Of a DNA stretch of 64,000 nucleotides, positions 3,184 to 55,224 are shown one piece after another; the first letter of the stretch is position 1, and each line of letters opens with the position of its first letter. The stretch comes from Candidatus Palibaumannia cicadellinicola (GTDB taxonomy: Bacteria; Pseudomonadota; Gammaproteobacteria; Enterobacterales; Enterobacteriaceae). Below the pieces are notes generated by a model that ran no database searches, was not told the DNA's origin, and saw nothing but the letters and a program-made list of their open reading frames with translations. Both the position numbers and the translations under genes were made by a program. Where the stretch lies: assembly GCF_000754265.1 (NCBI RefSeq), contig NZ_CP008985.1:682001-746000 (forward strand), written 5' to 3'.

Positions 3184-4889
<1,706 letters not shown>

Positions 4890-4898
4890 ACGCGTGGA

Positions 4899-5192
4899 TT
4901 ACTTTTCAACAATGGCCAAAATGTCGCTTTCAGACATGATTAACACCTCATCATTATCTATTTTTTCTACCTTCACGCCATATCCGTCATTAAAAATTAT
5001 GGTGTCGCCAACTTTCACATCTAACGCTTTCACTTCACCATTTTCTAGGCTACGGCCACGACCCACTGCCAGTACTTCTCCACGGGTAGATTTGCCTGCT
5101 GCAGAACCTGTCAGCATAATGCCACCTGCTGATTTAGATTCAACTTCTTTACGCTTTACGATAACACGATCGTGTAATGGACGAATTTTCAT
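4899..5192 (-). CDS. groS: Co-chaperonin GroES (10 kDa)
   Basis: GroES forms the heptameric lid that closes the GroEL folding chamber. It has 97 residues, as in E. coli. The start [14 protein letters not shown] is canonical, and the mobile-loop region that contacts GroEL (around [18 protein letters not shown], residues 18-36) is present. A strong Shine-Dalgarno (AAGGGGAGCT) lies just upstream of the ATG. It is the first gene of the operon, with a sigma32-type promoter about 90 bases upstream. The fxsA gene that adjoins groES in E. coli is not detectable here. Confidence 0.98.
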
Positions 5193-5282
5193 TGATAGCT
5201 CCCCTTAAAGAAAATTCAGGTCAATTTTGTATAGGATGGATGAATGTTGGGCATTTAATTATGCCACCTTCATGCGTTAATG

Positions 5283-5309
5283 ATGGGGGCGTTAAAGAAC
5301 GCTTCAAGG
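5283..5309 (-). promoter_or_regulatory. Sigma32 heat-shock promoter of groES-groEL
   Basis: On the - strand the sequence reads CCTTGAA (5303-5309), 14 bases, then CCCCCAT (5283-5289). This fits the sigma32 consensus CTTGAAA-N14-CCCCAT closely. It lies 91 bases before the groES ATG, like the E. coli groE promoter. No other strong promoter was seen in the leader. Confidence 0.85.
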
Positions 5310-5672
5310 GTAAAAAAATAATTTTTTTTATTTTGCGTAATTTTTAGTCAAAATAATTACGATATTGAAATAAAATTTATCACTAAAATATAAGTGCTTA
5401 CTATCATTTTCATGATGTTTTGTTTAGTAACGACAATTAAGCCTAAATTTAGATTTGGATGACAATATTAGTAAATCAATTTAACTCCCAAAAATAATCA
5501 TAATAGCCACTACTTTCCTATTTAGCGAGGCTACACTCTCCTTCCTTAACCTTAAGTTTTAGGTTCATAATATATTTGTCATGTTCATAAGGCATTACAT
5601 ATTACATGTAGTAATTTATTAATTATAACAAAAAATATTTAAATGAATTATTTTATAAATTAAGGAAGTGAC
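5310..5672. other. AT-rich spacer between groES and aspA
   Basis: About 360 bases without a recognisable gene separate the divergent groES promoter and aspA. E. coli has fxsA in this place; I could not find a convincing remnant on either strand. A possible sigma70 promoter for aspA (TTGTCA at 5576-5581, 18-base spacer, TATTAC at 5600-5605) is weak. A small 5-bp hairpin (5548-5565) is probably chance. Confidence 0.5.
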
Positions 5673-27233: not shown

Positions 27234-27245
27234 TATGTTTCGTCC

Positions 27246-27271
27246 CTTGAATCCTTACTATTTATCCCCAT
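27246..27271 (+). promoter_or_regulatory. Sigma32 heat-shock promoter of grpE
   Basis: CTTGAA (27246-27251), 14 bases, then CCCCAT (27266-27271) match the sigma32 consensus. The spacing is the same as for the groES promoter. The grpE ATG begins 45 bases downstream of the -10 element. Confidence 0.82.
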
Positions 27272-27316
27272 AATAACCGGACTCGTAAGAATAATGCTGA
27301 AGCGCGGAGAAAACGT

Positions 27317-49653: not shown

Positions 49654-50052
49654 TTAATCGGCTGTATCTTTTTCGTGATAACGTTGACGATCTTTTTCTA
49701 CAGCTTGACTAACAAGATTATATATGCGCATACCTTTTACCAATGAGTAGTCATAAGCGAAAGTTAGCTTCGGCACCACACGTAAGTGCATTGCTTTGCC
49801 GAGCAGGCTACGGATAAATCCCGAAGCAGCCTGCAGTGTCCGTATCGCTATGTTTACCTGATCATCGTTATTCTCATTCAGGAAGGTGAAGGTCACAAAA
49901 ACTGTTGCTGATGCTAAGTCACGGGATACATCAACTCCTGAAACAGTAGCCATACTAATACGAGGATCTCTAATTTCGCGTTGCAAACTAATGGCTATTG
50001 TTTTTTGCATCTCCTGAGCGAGACGTTGTGTACGGCTATACTCTTTGGCCAT
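49654..50052 (-). CDS. rbfA: Ribosome-binding factor A
   Basis: RbfA binds the 30S subunit and supports 16S rRNA 5'-end maturation, notably in the cold. From the ATG at 50052 (GGAGAATG upstream) it has 132 residues (E. coli 133) and begins [18 protein letters not shown]. Thirteen upstream open codons are ignored. The KH-like fold text [20 protein letters not shown] is conserved. With RimP lost (see 54304-54491), RbfA and the other factors carry 30S maturation. Confidence 0.96.
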
Positions 50053-50111
50053 AAGACATTCTCCAGATAGATAAGCCAAGGCGTTTCTCATATTTCTGTA
50101 CTTAACGATCG

Positions 50112-52769
50112 TTAGTTATCAAGCGCTAGTTTTTGTATTATCTGAATGAATTCGAATACTTCTATAACGTCGCCAGTATGAATATCAGTATAGTTTTTTA
50201 TACCAATACCACATTCCATACCGTTACGCACTTCATTAACATCATCTTTAAAGCGACGTAGCGAATCTAGCTCACCTTCGTAGATGACGATATTATCGCG
50301 TAGTACGCGAATTTTGTTATGGCGCTTAACTACACCTTCTGTTACTATACAACCAGCGATAGCGCCAAATTTAGGTGAACGAAAAACATCACGTACTTCT
50401 GCTAAACCAATAATTTCCTGTTTATACTCAGGTGCTAGCATACCATTAATTGCTTGTTTGACTTCATCAATCAAGTCGTAGATTACAGAATAATAACGTA
50501 TATCAATATTTTCAGTATCAATTATGCGACGAGCAGAGGCATCAGCACGAACGTTAAAACCTAGTACTATAGCATGAGAAGCAGCAGCAAGAGTAACGTC
50601 AGTTTCAGTAATACCACCAACACCAGAGCCGATGATATTCACTTTTATGTTATCGTTAGAAAGTTTCTTAAGTGCATCATGGATTGCTTCTGCTGAACCT
50701 TGTACGTCTGATTTGAGCACAATGTTCAACTCTAATATGTTGCCTTCGGTAACATTAGCGAACATATTTTCTAGTTTAGAACTATGCTGACGTGCTAATT
50801 TTACTTCACGAAACTTACCCTGACGATATAGGGCCACTTCACGAGCTTTTTTCTCATCACGGACTACAGTCACTTCGTCACCAGCAATAGGAACTCCGGA
50901 TAGACCGAGAATTTCTACTGGGATAGATGGACCAGCAGAATATAAAGTACGACCTCCTTCATCACGCATGGCACGTACACGACCATATTCTAGTCCGCAT
51001 AGCACAATATCACCACGATTCAGAGTACCTTCACGTACTAATATGGTTGCTACTGGACCTCTGCCTTTATCCAAGAAAGATTCGATCACAACACCGCTTG
51101 CCATACCATGATGAATGGCTTTAAGTTCTAGCACTTCCGCCTGTAGCAGGATAGCGTCTAGTAGATCTTCAATACCGGTACCATCTTTAGCAGAGACATT
51201 CACGAACTGATTTTCACCACCCCATTCTTCCGGAATAACACCGTACTTAGTTAGTTCATTTTTTATACGATCTGGATCAGCTTCTTGTTTATCAATTTTA
51301 TTGATAGCGACAACAATCGGTACTTTTGCAGCTTTAGCATGTTGTATCGCTTCTATTGTCTGCGGCATAGCGCCGTTGTCAGCCGCAACCACTAGCACAA
51401 CAATATCCGTTGTTCTAGCACCACGAGCACGCATGGCAGTAAAAGCTGCATGTCCAGGAGTATCCAGAAAGGTAATCATACCTCTCTCTGTTTCTACATG
51501 GTAAGCTCCAATATGCTGAGTAATACCGCCAGCTTCGCTAGCTGCGACCTTAGTTGAGCGGATATAGTCTAGTAATGAGGTTTTACCATGGTCTACGTGC
51601 CCCATGATGGTTACAACGGGAGCACGTAATTCAGCAGCAGCGTCGCTACCAATATCACGGTCGTTCATAATCGATGCTTCTAATTCGTTTTCACGAAGTA
51701 GGATAACCTTATGACCCATATCTTCTGCCACAATTTGCGCAGTTTCTTGATCAATTACTTGGTTAATAGTTACCATGGCACCTAATTTCATCATTTTTTT
51801 TATTATTTGTGAACCTTTTACTGCCATCTTATTAGCTAGTTCAGCAACCGTGATCATTTCTCCGATAACAACATCGCGGTTGATTACTTGCGAAGGTTTG
51901 TTGAAAACTTGCATCAGAACGCTAGATTTACGTTTGTTTTGACTTTTCCCACTACGTCCAACAGCGCGTGCTTCTTCGCGATCTGCTTTAAACTCAGATA
52001 AACGGTTAGTTCTTTTTTGTTTAGAAGTTTTACCTCCTCGGATTCGACGTTCGTTTTCTATCTTTCTATCATTATCGTCTTCTGCTACACGGGCGTGATG
52101 ACAAGTCGTAATATGGTAATCAGTTATATCTTCTTCGGTAGATTCGGACGTAGCAATCCAATTGCTACCATGATTTTCAGCAAGTTGAGAGACTTCTTCT
52201 GCAATTTGGCGAGCCTTTTCTTCGATCTTACGACGTGTTTCTTCTTCTACTTGATGTTTCAACCATGCTGCTTCTACTTGACGGTTGGCTTTTTCAGACG
52301 CCTGTTTTGACTTAGTCATAGGATTGGTCTGATTTATTATCAATTTATTACTTTCCGCTATCCTACATTTATTTTGTTTCTTAGGAACAGATTTAGTATT
52401 ATCTTCTGTCTGAAGTATTACTGTTTCGACAGTCATCTTTTTAGTCAGTTCTTCTACTTCATTCTGTTTCAAAGCCTGAGGTTCTCGTTGCACATATATG
52501 CGCTTTTTACGTACTTCTATTTGTACTGACTTACTTTTACCACTGGCACTAGGAATCTTTAAGGTGCAGCGCGTTTTACGTTGTAAGGTTAATTGATGTG
52601 GCGCGTTGCTAAGATCAGATTTTAGGTACGCGAGTAAGGTTTCTTTTTCCTGCGAAGTAACATAATCTACTGCGGTTTTATCAATACCAACATCAGTAAA
52701 CTGCTGTACTAGACGATCCACAGGAATTTGCATTTCTGCGGCAAGCGATTTTACTGTTACATTTGTCAT
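50112..52769 (-). CDS. infB: Translation initiation factor IF-2
   Basis: IF-2 is the GTPase that places initiator tRNA on the ribosome. It has 885 residues (E. coli 890). A small N-terminal domain ([20 protein letters not shown]) is followed by a long charged, coiled region, then the second IF2_N repeat ([19 protein letters not shown]). The GTPase domain starts near residue 385 ([31 protein letters not shown]). Domain II and the C-terminal fMet-tRNA binding domain follow. An internal start for the shorter IF-2 form may exist but was not assigned. It lies between nusA and rbfA. Confidence 0.98.
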
Positions 52770-52794
52770 GCTGTTTCTTCCATGCTACGTTTTA

Positions 52795-54282
52795 TTACAC
52801 CTTATTACCAAACCAGCAAATATTGCGCGCTGCCATAATTAGCTCTCCAGCTTCCTCACTGCTTAATCCTTCAATATTTGATAAGTCTTCGACACCTTGT
52901 TCGGCAAGATTTTCCAGCGTACACACCCCATGCGCGGCTAATTTGAAAGCTATATTGCGCTCAAGTTTCGATAATCCCAATAAGTCTTCAGCCGGCTTGA
53001 CTACTTTGCTATTATTTTCCATAGCTAAGGCAAGTTCCGTAAGAGCATGCTTAGCTTTTGTTCGCAGCTTTTCTACTGTATTTTCATCAAGTTTATCGAT
53101 GGCTAGTAATTCCTTTATTGGTACGTAGGCTAGCTCTTCCAGCGAAGAAAAGCCACCATCCACAAGTACTGTAGCTAAATTTTCATCGATCTTTAGATGT
53201 TTAATAAAAATTTTGATAGAAGCATAAGCTTCAGCTCTATGTTTTTCCTGTAGATCATATACTGTCATAACATTTAGCTCCCATCCGCTGAGCTGGGAAG
53301 CTAACCGGACGTTTTGTCCGTTGCGTCCTATAGCCTGAGCAAGGTTCCCAGCTTCTACCGCAATATCCATAGTATGTTTATCCTCATCTACTACTATGGA
53401 CGTTACGTCAGCGGGGGCCATAGCGTTAATAACAAATTGAACAGCGTTATCATCCCATAAAACAATATCAATACGTTCCCCGCCTAATTCGCTAGAAACT
53501 GCCTGTACGCGCGCACCGCGCATACCAACACACGCACCAACAGGATCAATTCTTTTATCATTAGTTTTCACTGCTATTTTGGCTCGTGAGCCTGGATCTC
53601 TGGCTACAGCCTTAATTTCAATTACTTCTTCGCCGATTTCTGGTACCTCAATACGAAACAGCTCAACTAACATTTCGGGACGAGCGCGGCTCACGAAAAG
53701 TTGCGGGCCACGTGCTTCCGGACGTATGGAGTAAAGCACTCCGCGGATACGGTCACCCAGGCGAAAATTCTCACGTGGTAACATATCTTCACGACTAATA
53801 AAAGCTTCAGCATTATTCCCGAGATCTAGATTTATACTGTCGCGATTAACTTTTTTTACCACACCGGTAAGGATTTCTCCTTCGTGATTACGAAATTGTT
53901 CTACTACCATAGCACGCTCTGCTTCGCGTACTTTTTGCACAATAACTTGTTTAGCGGTTTGAGTAGTGATACGGTCAAATATTACAGATTCAATTTCATC
54001 TTCAATATAACCGCCTATTTTAGCTTTTGAATTGTCAAATTTTGCTGCTTCCAGTGTGATCTCGCGAGTTGGCAGGGTGACTTCTTCTACAATAAGCCAA
54101 CGGCGGAATGTTTTAAAATCACCAGACTTACGATCAATGTTAATGCGAACTTCAATTTCTTGTTCGTATTTTTTCTTTGTTGCGGTAGCCAGAGCAGTCT
54201 CAAGCGCTTCGAAAATCTTTTCCCTTGGAATTGATTTTTCGTTGGAAACTGCCTCAACAACAGCAAGAATTTCTTTATTCAT
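52795..54282 (-). CDS. nusA: Transcription termination/antitermination factor NusA
   Basis: NusA binds RNA polymerase and modulates pausing, termination and antitermination. It has 495 residues, the E. coli length. In order come the N-terminal polymerase-binding domain ([20 protein letters not shown]), S1, two KH domains ([20 protein letters not shown] and [19 protein letters not shown]) and two acidic C-terminal repeats. It follows the rimP relic directly, so transcription that in E. coli passes through metY-rimP reaches it only past the hairpin at 54519-54541 or from a new promoter. Confidence 0.98.
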
Positions 54283-54303
54283 CCTAGTAGCCTCAGTAAA
54301 ATG

Positions 54304-54491
54304 TTAAAAGTCGGGTACAAAGCGAAAACTTTTACTTTTTTTCTTTCTACCGTCACCGTGATCATTTCACCGTCGACCGCTTTAAGAATGACCTACTACT
54401 TACCGCTACCGCCGTAGTTTGGCACTGCTATACCATAACCATCTTCTGCGCCGGTAAATAGCGCGAAATAGGCTGCGGTGAACTTTGATCT
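54304..54491 (-). pseudogene. rimP: rimP relic (ribosome maturation factor), decayed
   Basis: On the - strand the region translates to text that follows the second half of E. coli RimP in order. RSKFTAAYFALF is comparable to RPLFTAEHYARF. Two adjacent stop codons follow (TAGTAG, 54393-54398). Next comes ILKAVDGEMITVTVE, of which KAVDGEMITVTVE is identical to E. coli. Then VFAL, a frameshifting deletion, and VPDF with stop, comparable to VPHF with stop. The N-terminal half is gone, replaced by the tRNA terminator. RimP helps assemble the 30S head. Position between the initiator tRNA and nusA is exactly that of rimP in E. coli. No intact product is possible. Confidence 0.9.
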
Positions 54492-54518
54492 TATTATTTA
54501 ATAATAATATTTAATAAC

Positions 54519-54541
54519 AAAAAGCCCCGAAAAATCGGGGC
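54519..54541 (-). terminator. Intrinsic terminator of the initiator tRNA transcript
   Basis: GCCCCGA (54524-54530 on the + strand) and TCGGGGC (54535-54541) form a 7-bp stem with a 4-base loop. Five T residues follow on the - strand (54519-54523). It lies 86 bases past the tRNA and just before the rimP relic. Confidence 0.82.
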
Positions 54542-54626
54542 GTTAAGTTATTGTAACTTGTCAATCGCAAGCAAAAATGCAAATTATTAATAATATTTTA
54601 AAAAATACTATTAAAGAAAAAAGAGG

Positions 54627-54700
<74 letters not shown>

Positions 54701-54757
54701 TAATAAAATACTTTAATATACTTTGTTTACCGTAATAAATCAACTAATCAACGAAAT

Positions 54758-54844
54758 TGGTACCGAGAACGGGACTTGAACCCGTAAGCTTTATTAAGCA
54801 CTACCACCTCAAGGTAGCGTGTCTACCAATTCCACCACCTCGGC
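54758..54844 (-). tRNA. leuU: tRNA-Leu (GAG), CCA encoded
   Basis: The sequence is close to E. coli leuU: acceptor GCCGAGG, anticodon region CTACCTTGAGGTGGTAG with anticodon GAG, long variable arm, T arm GGGTTCAAGTCCC and ACCA end. It lies next to secG as in E. coli. Confidence 0.95.
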
Positions 54845-54891
54845 ACTAAACAACTATATTTATAAAATGAATTATTTTGTAAGTAAAGACT

Positions 54892-55224
54892 TTACTTTAA
54901 AATATCATTAGTAACTTTATCTGAAGATAAAGTACTACCTGTACTGATGCGCATATCTTTAACTAGATTTGAATCATGTATATCACTATTTTTATCATAA
55001 TCATGACTGCTTATATTCCCTAATATTAAACTCAGCAACAAAAACAGTGTTCCCATAACTGCAGTCATACGTGTTATAAAGTTACTAGAACCACTCGAAC
55101 CAAACAAGGTACTAGAGGCGCCGATACCGAAAGAAGTATCCATATAAGTACCTTGTTGCAGTATAATCAGTGTTATTAGACATACTGCCACTAATATAAA
55201 TATTACTAATATAGTTTGACACAT
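54892..55224 (-). CDS. secG: Protein translocase subunit SecG
   Basis: SecG is the small two-span subunit of the SecYEG channel. It has 110 residues, as in E. coli. TM1 is at residues 3-22 and TM2 about 54-70, joined by the conserved loop LQQGTYMDTSFGIGASSTLF, near E. coli LQQGKGADMGASFGAGAS with local changes. FGSSGSSNFITRMT is conserved. No clear Shine-Dalgarno is seen. It is upstream of tRNA-Leu(GAG) and downstream of glmM on the same strand, the E. coli arrangement. Confidence 0.94.
   Translation of the reverse strand: MCQTILVIFILVAVCLITLIILQQGTYMDTSFGIGASSTLFGSSGSSNFITRMTAVMGTLFLLLSLILGNISSHDYDKNSDIHDSNLVKDMRISTGSTLSSDKVTNDILK

Follow-up and report, generated by a model that had tools for sequence, protein, structure and literature searches.

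A decayed rimP upstream of nusA in Candidatus Palibaumannia cicadellinicola and a possible regulatory role for its surviving end

Does the DNA between the initiator tRNA gene metY and nusA, the place that rimP holds in E. coli, still do anything in a lineage that has dispensed with RimP? We addressed this question in a window of 64,000 nucleotides, positions 682,001-746,000 of the single 759,425-bp contig of Candidatus Palibaumannia cicadellinicola (genome G000; coordinates below are those of the window). A preliminary description of the sequence had seen a rimP relic in this segment and had taken it for a snapshot of gene loss that would usually pass as empty spacer. The features of the locus, in the direction of transcription, are as follows.

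54758..54844, minus strand: tRNA-Leu(GAG), the upstream neighbour (ARAGORN)
54625..54700, minus strand: metY-type tRNA-Met(CAT) (ARAGORN; Rfam tRNA, 62.9 bits; E. coli metY has the same place)
54465..54577, minus strand: remnant of the rimP leader, RF01770 (cmscan 43.1 bits, E 2.2e-5, gathering score 47)
54524-54541, minus strand: intrinsic terminator hairpin with T tail, within the leader remnant (terminator scan)
54493..54520, minus strand: TTGTTA-16-AATAAT, a promoter-like pair adjoining the relic on its upstream side (by consensus match only)
54304..54491, minus strand: rimP relic, C-terminal ~40% (tblastn, profile search, alignment with Sodalis and E. coli)
54453..54482, minus strand: FTAAYFALFT block, resembling RimP (L)FTAEHYARF (translation, tblastn, alignment)
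54393..54398, minus strand: two in-frame TAGs, at RimP Trp and Gln codons (the second one common to G003)
54345..54383, minus strand: KAVDGEMITVTVE codons (54349-54383 is a 35-nt identity run with Sodalis SoCistrobi rimP)
54329..54356, minus strand: weak candidate promoter-like pair GTGACG-16-TAAAAG in the place of E. coli P3 (picked by eye; absent from the consensus scan)
54317..54318, minus strand: junction of a 25-nt frameshifting deletion (also in G003)
52795..54282, minus strand: nusA (Pfam NusA_N, S1, KH)
50112..52769, minus strand: ORF in the infB place (named by size and by gene order, as in E. coli)
49654..50091, minus strand: rbfA (Pfam RBFA, 101 bits)

An inactivated rimP between metY and nusA

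Read on the minus strand from 54626 to 54283, frame 1 contains FTAAYFALFTGAEDGYGIAVPNYGGSGK, two stops and then VILKAVDGEMITVTVERKKVKVFALYPTF, a series of RimP-like blocks that keep their order and are broken by the two TAGs. E. coli RimP (NC_000913) has LFTAEHYARF, KAVDGEMITVTVE, VFAL and LVPHF in the matching order, and the KAVDGEMITVTVE residues of the relic are identical to those of E. coli, so that the identity and the flanking matches claimed in the preliminary description hold. We then searched the 64-kb window by tblastn with intact RimPs encoded by ORFs upstream of nusA, which were present at all 82 loci fetched. The relic was matched by 81 of these 82 queries (best E 9.4e-7), while the 51 matches outside it, at E up to 10, reached 0.42 at best. 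A profile of the 82 RimPs likewise ranked the relic first among the six-frame pieces of the window (E 3.8e-5; next piece 7.7). The RimP C-terminal domain PF17384 scored 14.7 bits on the stop-free piece of the relic and 12.7 bits in a genome search, in which the relic was the sole chromosomal place reported at E up to 10; both scores lie below the cut-off of 26.3, and the relic could therefore not be called from Pfam alone. The relic was aligned with the rimP genes of Sodalis and E. coli, and ARAGORN, Pfam and gene order put it in the E. coli place between metY and nusA.

The C-terminal ~40% of rimP remains at 54304-54491 (minus strand). The tblastn coordinates place the loss at codons 1-86 of 154, in agreement with the missing N-terminal half described earlier; since the 154 include four in-frame codons that precede the start annotated in E. 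coli, this equals 82 of the 150 codons of the E. coli gene. The in-frame TAGs lie at 54398-54396 and 54395-54393, 25 nt of Sodalis rimP are absent at ~54317 with a resulting frameshift, and the ancestral TAA, read from the sequence at 54306-54304, is out of frame; the two stops and the frameshifting deletion had thus been recognized correctly. With these stops, the frameshift and the domain scores, the relic is not a full rimP reading frame with RimP_N (PF02576) and PF17384. The chromosome (759,425 bp, a one-contig assembly that excludes the 6.5-kb plasmid described for the lineage) yielded neither a PF02576 match nor an intact rimP. Hence disabling mutations coincide with the lack of an intact chromosomal copy, as expected of a pseudogene. 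We conclude that 54304-54491 (minus strand) is almost certainly a dead rimP at its ancestral position, which the preliminary description read correctly and which, as gene loss, is ordinary.

Time of death and slow divergence of the relic

RimP_N was found in 30 of 40 genomes (G000 included) and in none of the four genomes of the genus Baumannia examined, so the claim that the lineage has dispensed with RimP holds more widely than it was made. Comparison with close relatives, which had been proposed as a check, gave no RimP_N match in any of three congeners. The relic recurs in the sister genome G003, where the RimP Gln codon is likewise TAG and the 25-nt deletion is shared; G003 has in addition an upstream stretch (VNRPLFT) that is missing in the window. 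In the congeners G001 and G002 most of the relic is deleted and alignable scraps are left: G001 has the TTTG/TACCCC junction as in G000 and little else, G002 scraps only. The 21 differences between the G000 and G003 relics in 208 aligned sites are distributed 4/10/7 over codon positions 1/2/3. A pattern like that of nusA, for which dS between these genomes is 0.46, would place 71% of them at position 3 (P 0.0004 for seven or fewer of 21), and no coding constraint is thus apparent after the death of the gene. Since the stop and the 25-nt deletion are shared and third positions show no excess, rimP was inactivated before G000 and G003 split; one or several deaths within the genus are both compatible with the data. 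The snapshot is therefore one of real loss, but not of a fresh one, as the death predates the split and the remnant has since changed more slowly than by free drift.

This slowness is newly found here. Between G000 and G003, 22 of 209 relic sites differ, compared with 1119 of 3395 four-fold sites in 23 window ORFs or ORF parts (Fisher P 2e-13) and 566 of 1951 sites in the 28 other spacers that could be mapped (P 8e-10; 20 further spacers were unmappable). The relic departs from the neutral rate of change, being about threefold slower than both yardsticks and lacking a coding pattern. The four-fold sites of adjoining nusA diverge at the ordinary rate (66/206), which gives no sign of a low mutation rate at this locus. 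Four-fold divergence in the operon genes is 0.26-0.37, except for a short rpsO-sized ORF (5/32), and every mapped spacer within the operon is rather slow (0-0.22). The spacer between nusA and the infB-place ORF (52770-52794) is identical at 25 of 25 bases; promoter P4 of E. coli is placed in the nusA-infB region by PMC6511841. Elsewhere in the window, some short spacers are as slow as the relic or slower, among them 4828-4898 (2/44) and 27234-27316, an 83-nt spacer between divergent ORFs that has three changes (3/83) and falls far under most spacers. The longer stretch 4828-5672 was rejected as a second slow spacer because it holds an ORF (4899-5192), groES-like by reading only.

Could a plain pseudogene in neutral decay, without any role, owe its slow change to chance, to the local mutation rate or to an edge effect by nusA? 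We give this explanation about an even chance. It accords with the loss of nearly all of the relic in G001 and G002, with the spread of changes across codon positions, with the few other short spacers that are equally slow, and with an unremarkable RNA fold (folding z of -1.14 in G000 and -1.78 in G003, not persuasive as evidence of structure). Moreover, deletions cannot cross an essential gene, so segments that adjoin one last longer. Such an edge effect explains part of the retention but not the slow substitution. Neutral decay is further opposed by a divergence about one-third that of four-fold sites and other spacers, by the ordinary rate at the nusA four-fold sites next door, and by a genome of another genus (G016, see below) in which the gene body is unrecognizable while the last ~20 codons are near-pristine.

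Recent acquisition of the fragment from a Sodalis-like co-symbiont is very unlikely. It would account for the 35-nt run (54349-54383) identical to rimP of Sodalis SoCistrobi (L045), which exceeds the longest identical run between the two nusA genes (23 nt), for a 29-nt run shared with L046, and for a G+C content of 49% over 54355-54491 against 41% in the window. Closeness to Sodalis is, however, expected, since outside the genus the NusA of highest identity among the matches listed is that of Sodalis. The fragment also sits in the ancestral operon place, alignable scraps of it persist in two other congeners, and outside the 35-nt block the 30-nt bins are 0-77% identical to Sodalis, except for 90% beside nusA. 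Even less probable is that the region still has a product, whether the C-terminal domain of RimP in truncated form, a protein made by recoding or frameshifting, or a small ORF read in a different frame. In its favour, KAVDGEMITVTVE is intact in G000; against it, two stops lie side by side, the frame is shifted by a deletion, third positions have no excess of changes, and the frames of G000 and G003 are put out of step by an indel of 1 nt. A small ORF common to both genomes was sought on either strand and discarded, as the six-frame translations share no long frame. Nothing was found in favour of sequencing or assembly errors in a working gene, and they are scarcely credible, given that G003 has one of the stops and the 25-nt deletion, that half of rimP is absent and that PF02576 is missing from all four Baumannia genomes.

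Recurrent rimP loss and the other 30S factors

In a sample of the family, RimP_N was present in 141 of 198 genomes and missing in 57; of the latter, those listed are mostly small. Internal stops interrupt three of the 141 matches (G048, G065 and G101); in these genomes, which belong to other genera, rimP still scores over the RimP_N cut-off and resembles earlier stages of the same loss. A NusA search of 49 of the 57 genomes without RimP_N together with these three (52 in all) found nusA in 51. We assembled 39 nusA upstream regions, comprising those of the best 30 of the 51 NusA matches and of G000-G003, G008, G009, G010, G013 and G021. Pieces of rimP coding sequence were detected in 16 of the 39 at E 1e-3 or better, G000 and G003 among them; some queries extend without a break of frame into the leader, and leader-only matches such as that in G107 are left out of this count. 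Relics of rimP before nusA are thus recurrent and ordinary. No report of such relics appears in titles and the beginnings of abstracts on rimP, Baumannia and Buchnera, and we claim their absence no further than that. In G016 (L024, locus 1501), the near-pristine last ~20 rimP codons lie ~90 nt upstream of nusA, and the rest of the ~660-nt spacer, roughly of E. coli length, has no RimP match beyond the leader.

The lineage had also been said to keep RbfA and other 30S factors. This is correct for RbfA, which is encoded in the window, and for RimM and a KsgA-type methyltransferase, which were found in all seven genomes checked, but not for the GTPase RsgA, for which G000, G003 and G018 have no match over the cut-off. 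RsgA matches over the cut-off were obtained in G016 (174 bits, without stops) and in G011 (with five stops). In G001 the sole RsgA-like match over the cut-off, together with its frame neighbours, is C1:248913-249281 (minus strand); it contains two TAG and two TAA codons and is probably a decayed rsgA. The match in G002 (30.5 with its neighbours) lies in a 478-aa frame and is, at a guess, another GTPase. Judged from these matches, two late 30S factors, RimP and RsgA, seem to be gone from the lineage. Among Mollicutes, few species are reported to have RimM and RimP (PMC4014445).

The rimP 3' end as candidate regulatory DNA of nusA

Why might the end of a dead gene drift slowly? E. coli promoter P3 has been mapped to distal rimP, with a start 75 bp upstream of nusA, a -35 box ATCACA and a -10 box AAAGAT (PMC6511841). 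These boxes fall in the ITVTVEGKD codons, in and just after the block kept in the window. In 74 non-redundant intact enteric rimP genes (the best matches listed plus E. coli), mean excess codon identity was 0.356 over codons 138-154, compared with 0.05-0.11 in the bins of codons 61-137, and the synonymous signal begins at about codon 136. Between the -10 box of P3 and the stop codon, synonymous choice is strongly constrained at many positions, with AAA in 59/59, GAT in 65/74, GTG in 71/74 and TTC in 73/74, and GCG, CTG and CCC (codons 148, 150 and 152) in all 74; at codons 143-145, 147 and 151 a constraint is not clear. Such constraint is not confined to the 3' end, as codons 1-12 (0.50) and 41-60 (0.31) show it too. 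The stretch of codons 41-60 is not preferentially kept in relics and may be a different embedded constraint. A synonymous-site element at the KAVDGEMITVTVE codons themselves was considered and dropped, since living genes do not show it (0.45, the mean being 0.59).

Because an alignment-based decay profile can favour anchored ends, we scored the 39 upstream regions by position-free word matching with reversed decoys. Words of 24 nt recurred in 14.0 genomes on average for the last 124 nt before nusA, 13.5 for the leader and 6.6 for the gene body; the reversed-sequence decoys gave 0.7, 1.8 and 1.4, respectively, with a maximum of 9 of 39 genomes for any decoy word. The excess of the last 124 nt and the leader over the body held with one genome per genus (31 genomes: 12.3, 12.5 and 6.3) and without Baumannia (30 genomes: 11.7, 12.0 and 6.1), although word matching still favours sequence that the reference genes conserve well, and the genomes are only partly independent of one another.

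These patterns suggest how the relic may have come about. rimP lost its first half and took on two stops and the 25-nt deletion, RimP being presumably dispensable, while distal rimP would double as upstream regulatory DNA of nusA, comprising the P3 region and the leader of its transcript. The promoter/leader segment would then erode last and outlive the protein, and the surviving relic may not drift freely for this reason. With rimP behind the leader dead, only nusA and the genes onwards could be controlled. That the relic is kept as regulatory DNA of nusA, its slow drift being due to a promoter/leader role, is a serious possibility that in our judgement falls a little short of an even chance. 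More tentatively still, the rimP 3' end of the Enterobacterales may be a dual-use sequence, both coding and serving as a nusA-infB promoter/leader, that is kept with the metY/rimP leader when the body rots, such that the pattern of decay maps a hidden cis-element. The relic is not essential, since G001 and G002 deleted most of it, and in G000 and G003 the 25 nt lost come from the stretch that is most constrained in living rimP. The consensus scan of 54200-54900 gave four promoter-like sites (1.5 expected from shuffles) and no site within the relic; one of them, at 54520-54493 just upstream, scores better than the candidate picked by eye and could serve nusA instead of a relic-internal promoter. 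If the rimP end is regulatory, natural pseudogenes would help to reveal cis-elements embedded in coding DNA, and the nusA-infB promoter/leader at P3 would gain comparative support and a testable boundary (~codons 136-154 in the 154-codon numbering).

Three known systems bear on this locus. The first is the rimP leader RF01770 (PMC2965389), whose CCCG...CGGG terminator is still recognizable in the window between metY and the rimP place; the match scores 43.1 and does not reach the gathering score of 47, whereas the sister locus L021 scores 48.3, and the second hairpin described there, GGGc...gCCC beside rimP, has no visible counterpart in the alignment of the window. The second is P3 as described in PMC6511841, which occupies the same place relative to nusA as the relic. 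Of its -35 segment, ATCAC is kept (ATCACA in E. coli, ATCACG in the window), but its -10 AAAGAT is not, the window having AAAAAA at that spacing; the candidate substitute GTGACG-16-TAAAAG of G000, which has a 17-nt spacer in G003, is weak and was picked by eye. The third is the set of Baumannia pseudogenes described by Bennett et al. 2015 (PMC4758232), in the main text of which a term search found no mention of rimP. Like the relic, these pseudogenes decay in place in a syntenic, shrinking genome, and the relic differs from them in changing more slowly than the neutral yardsticks.
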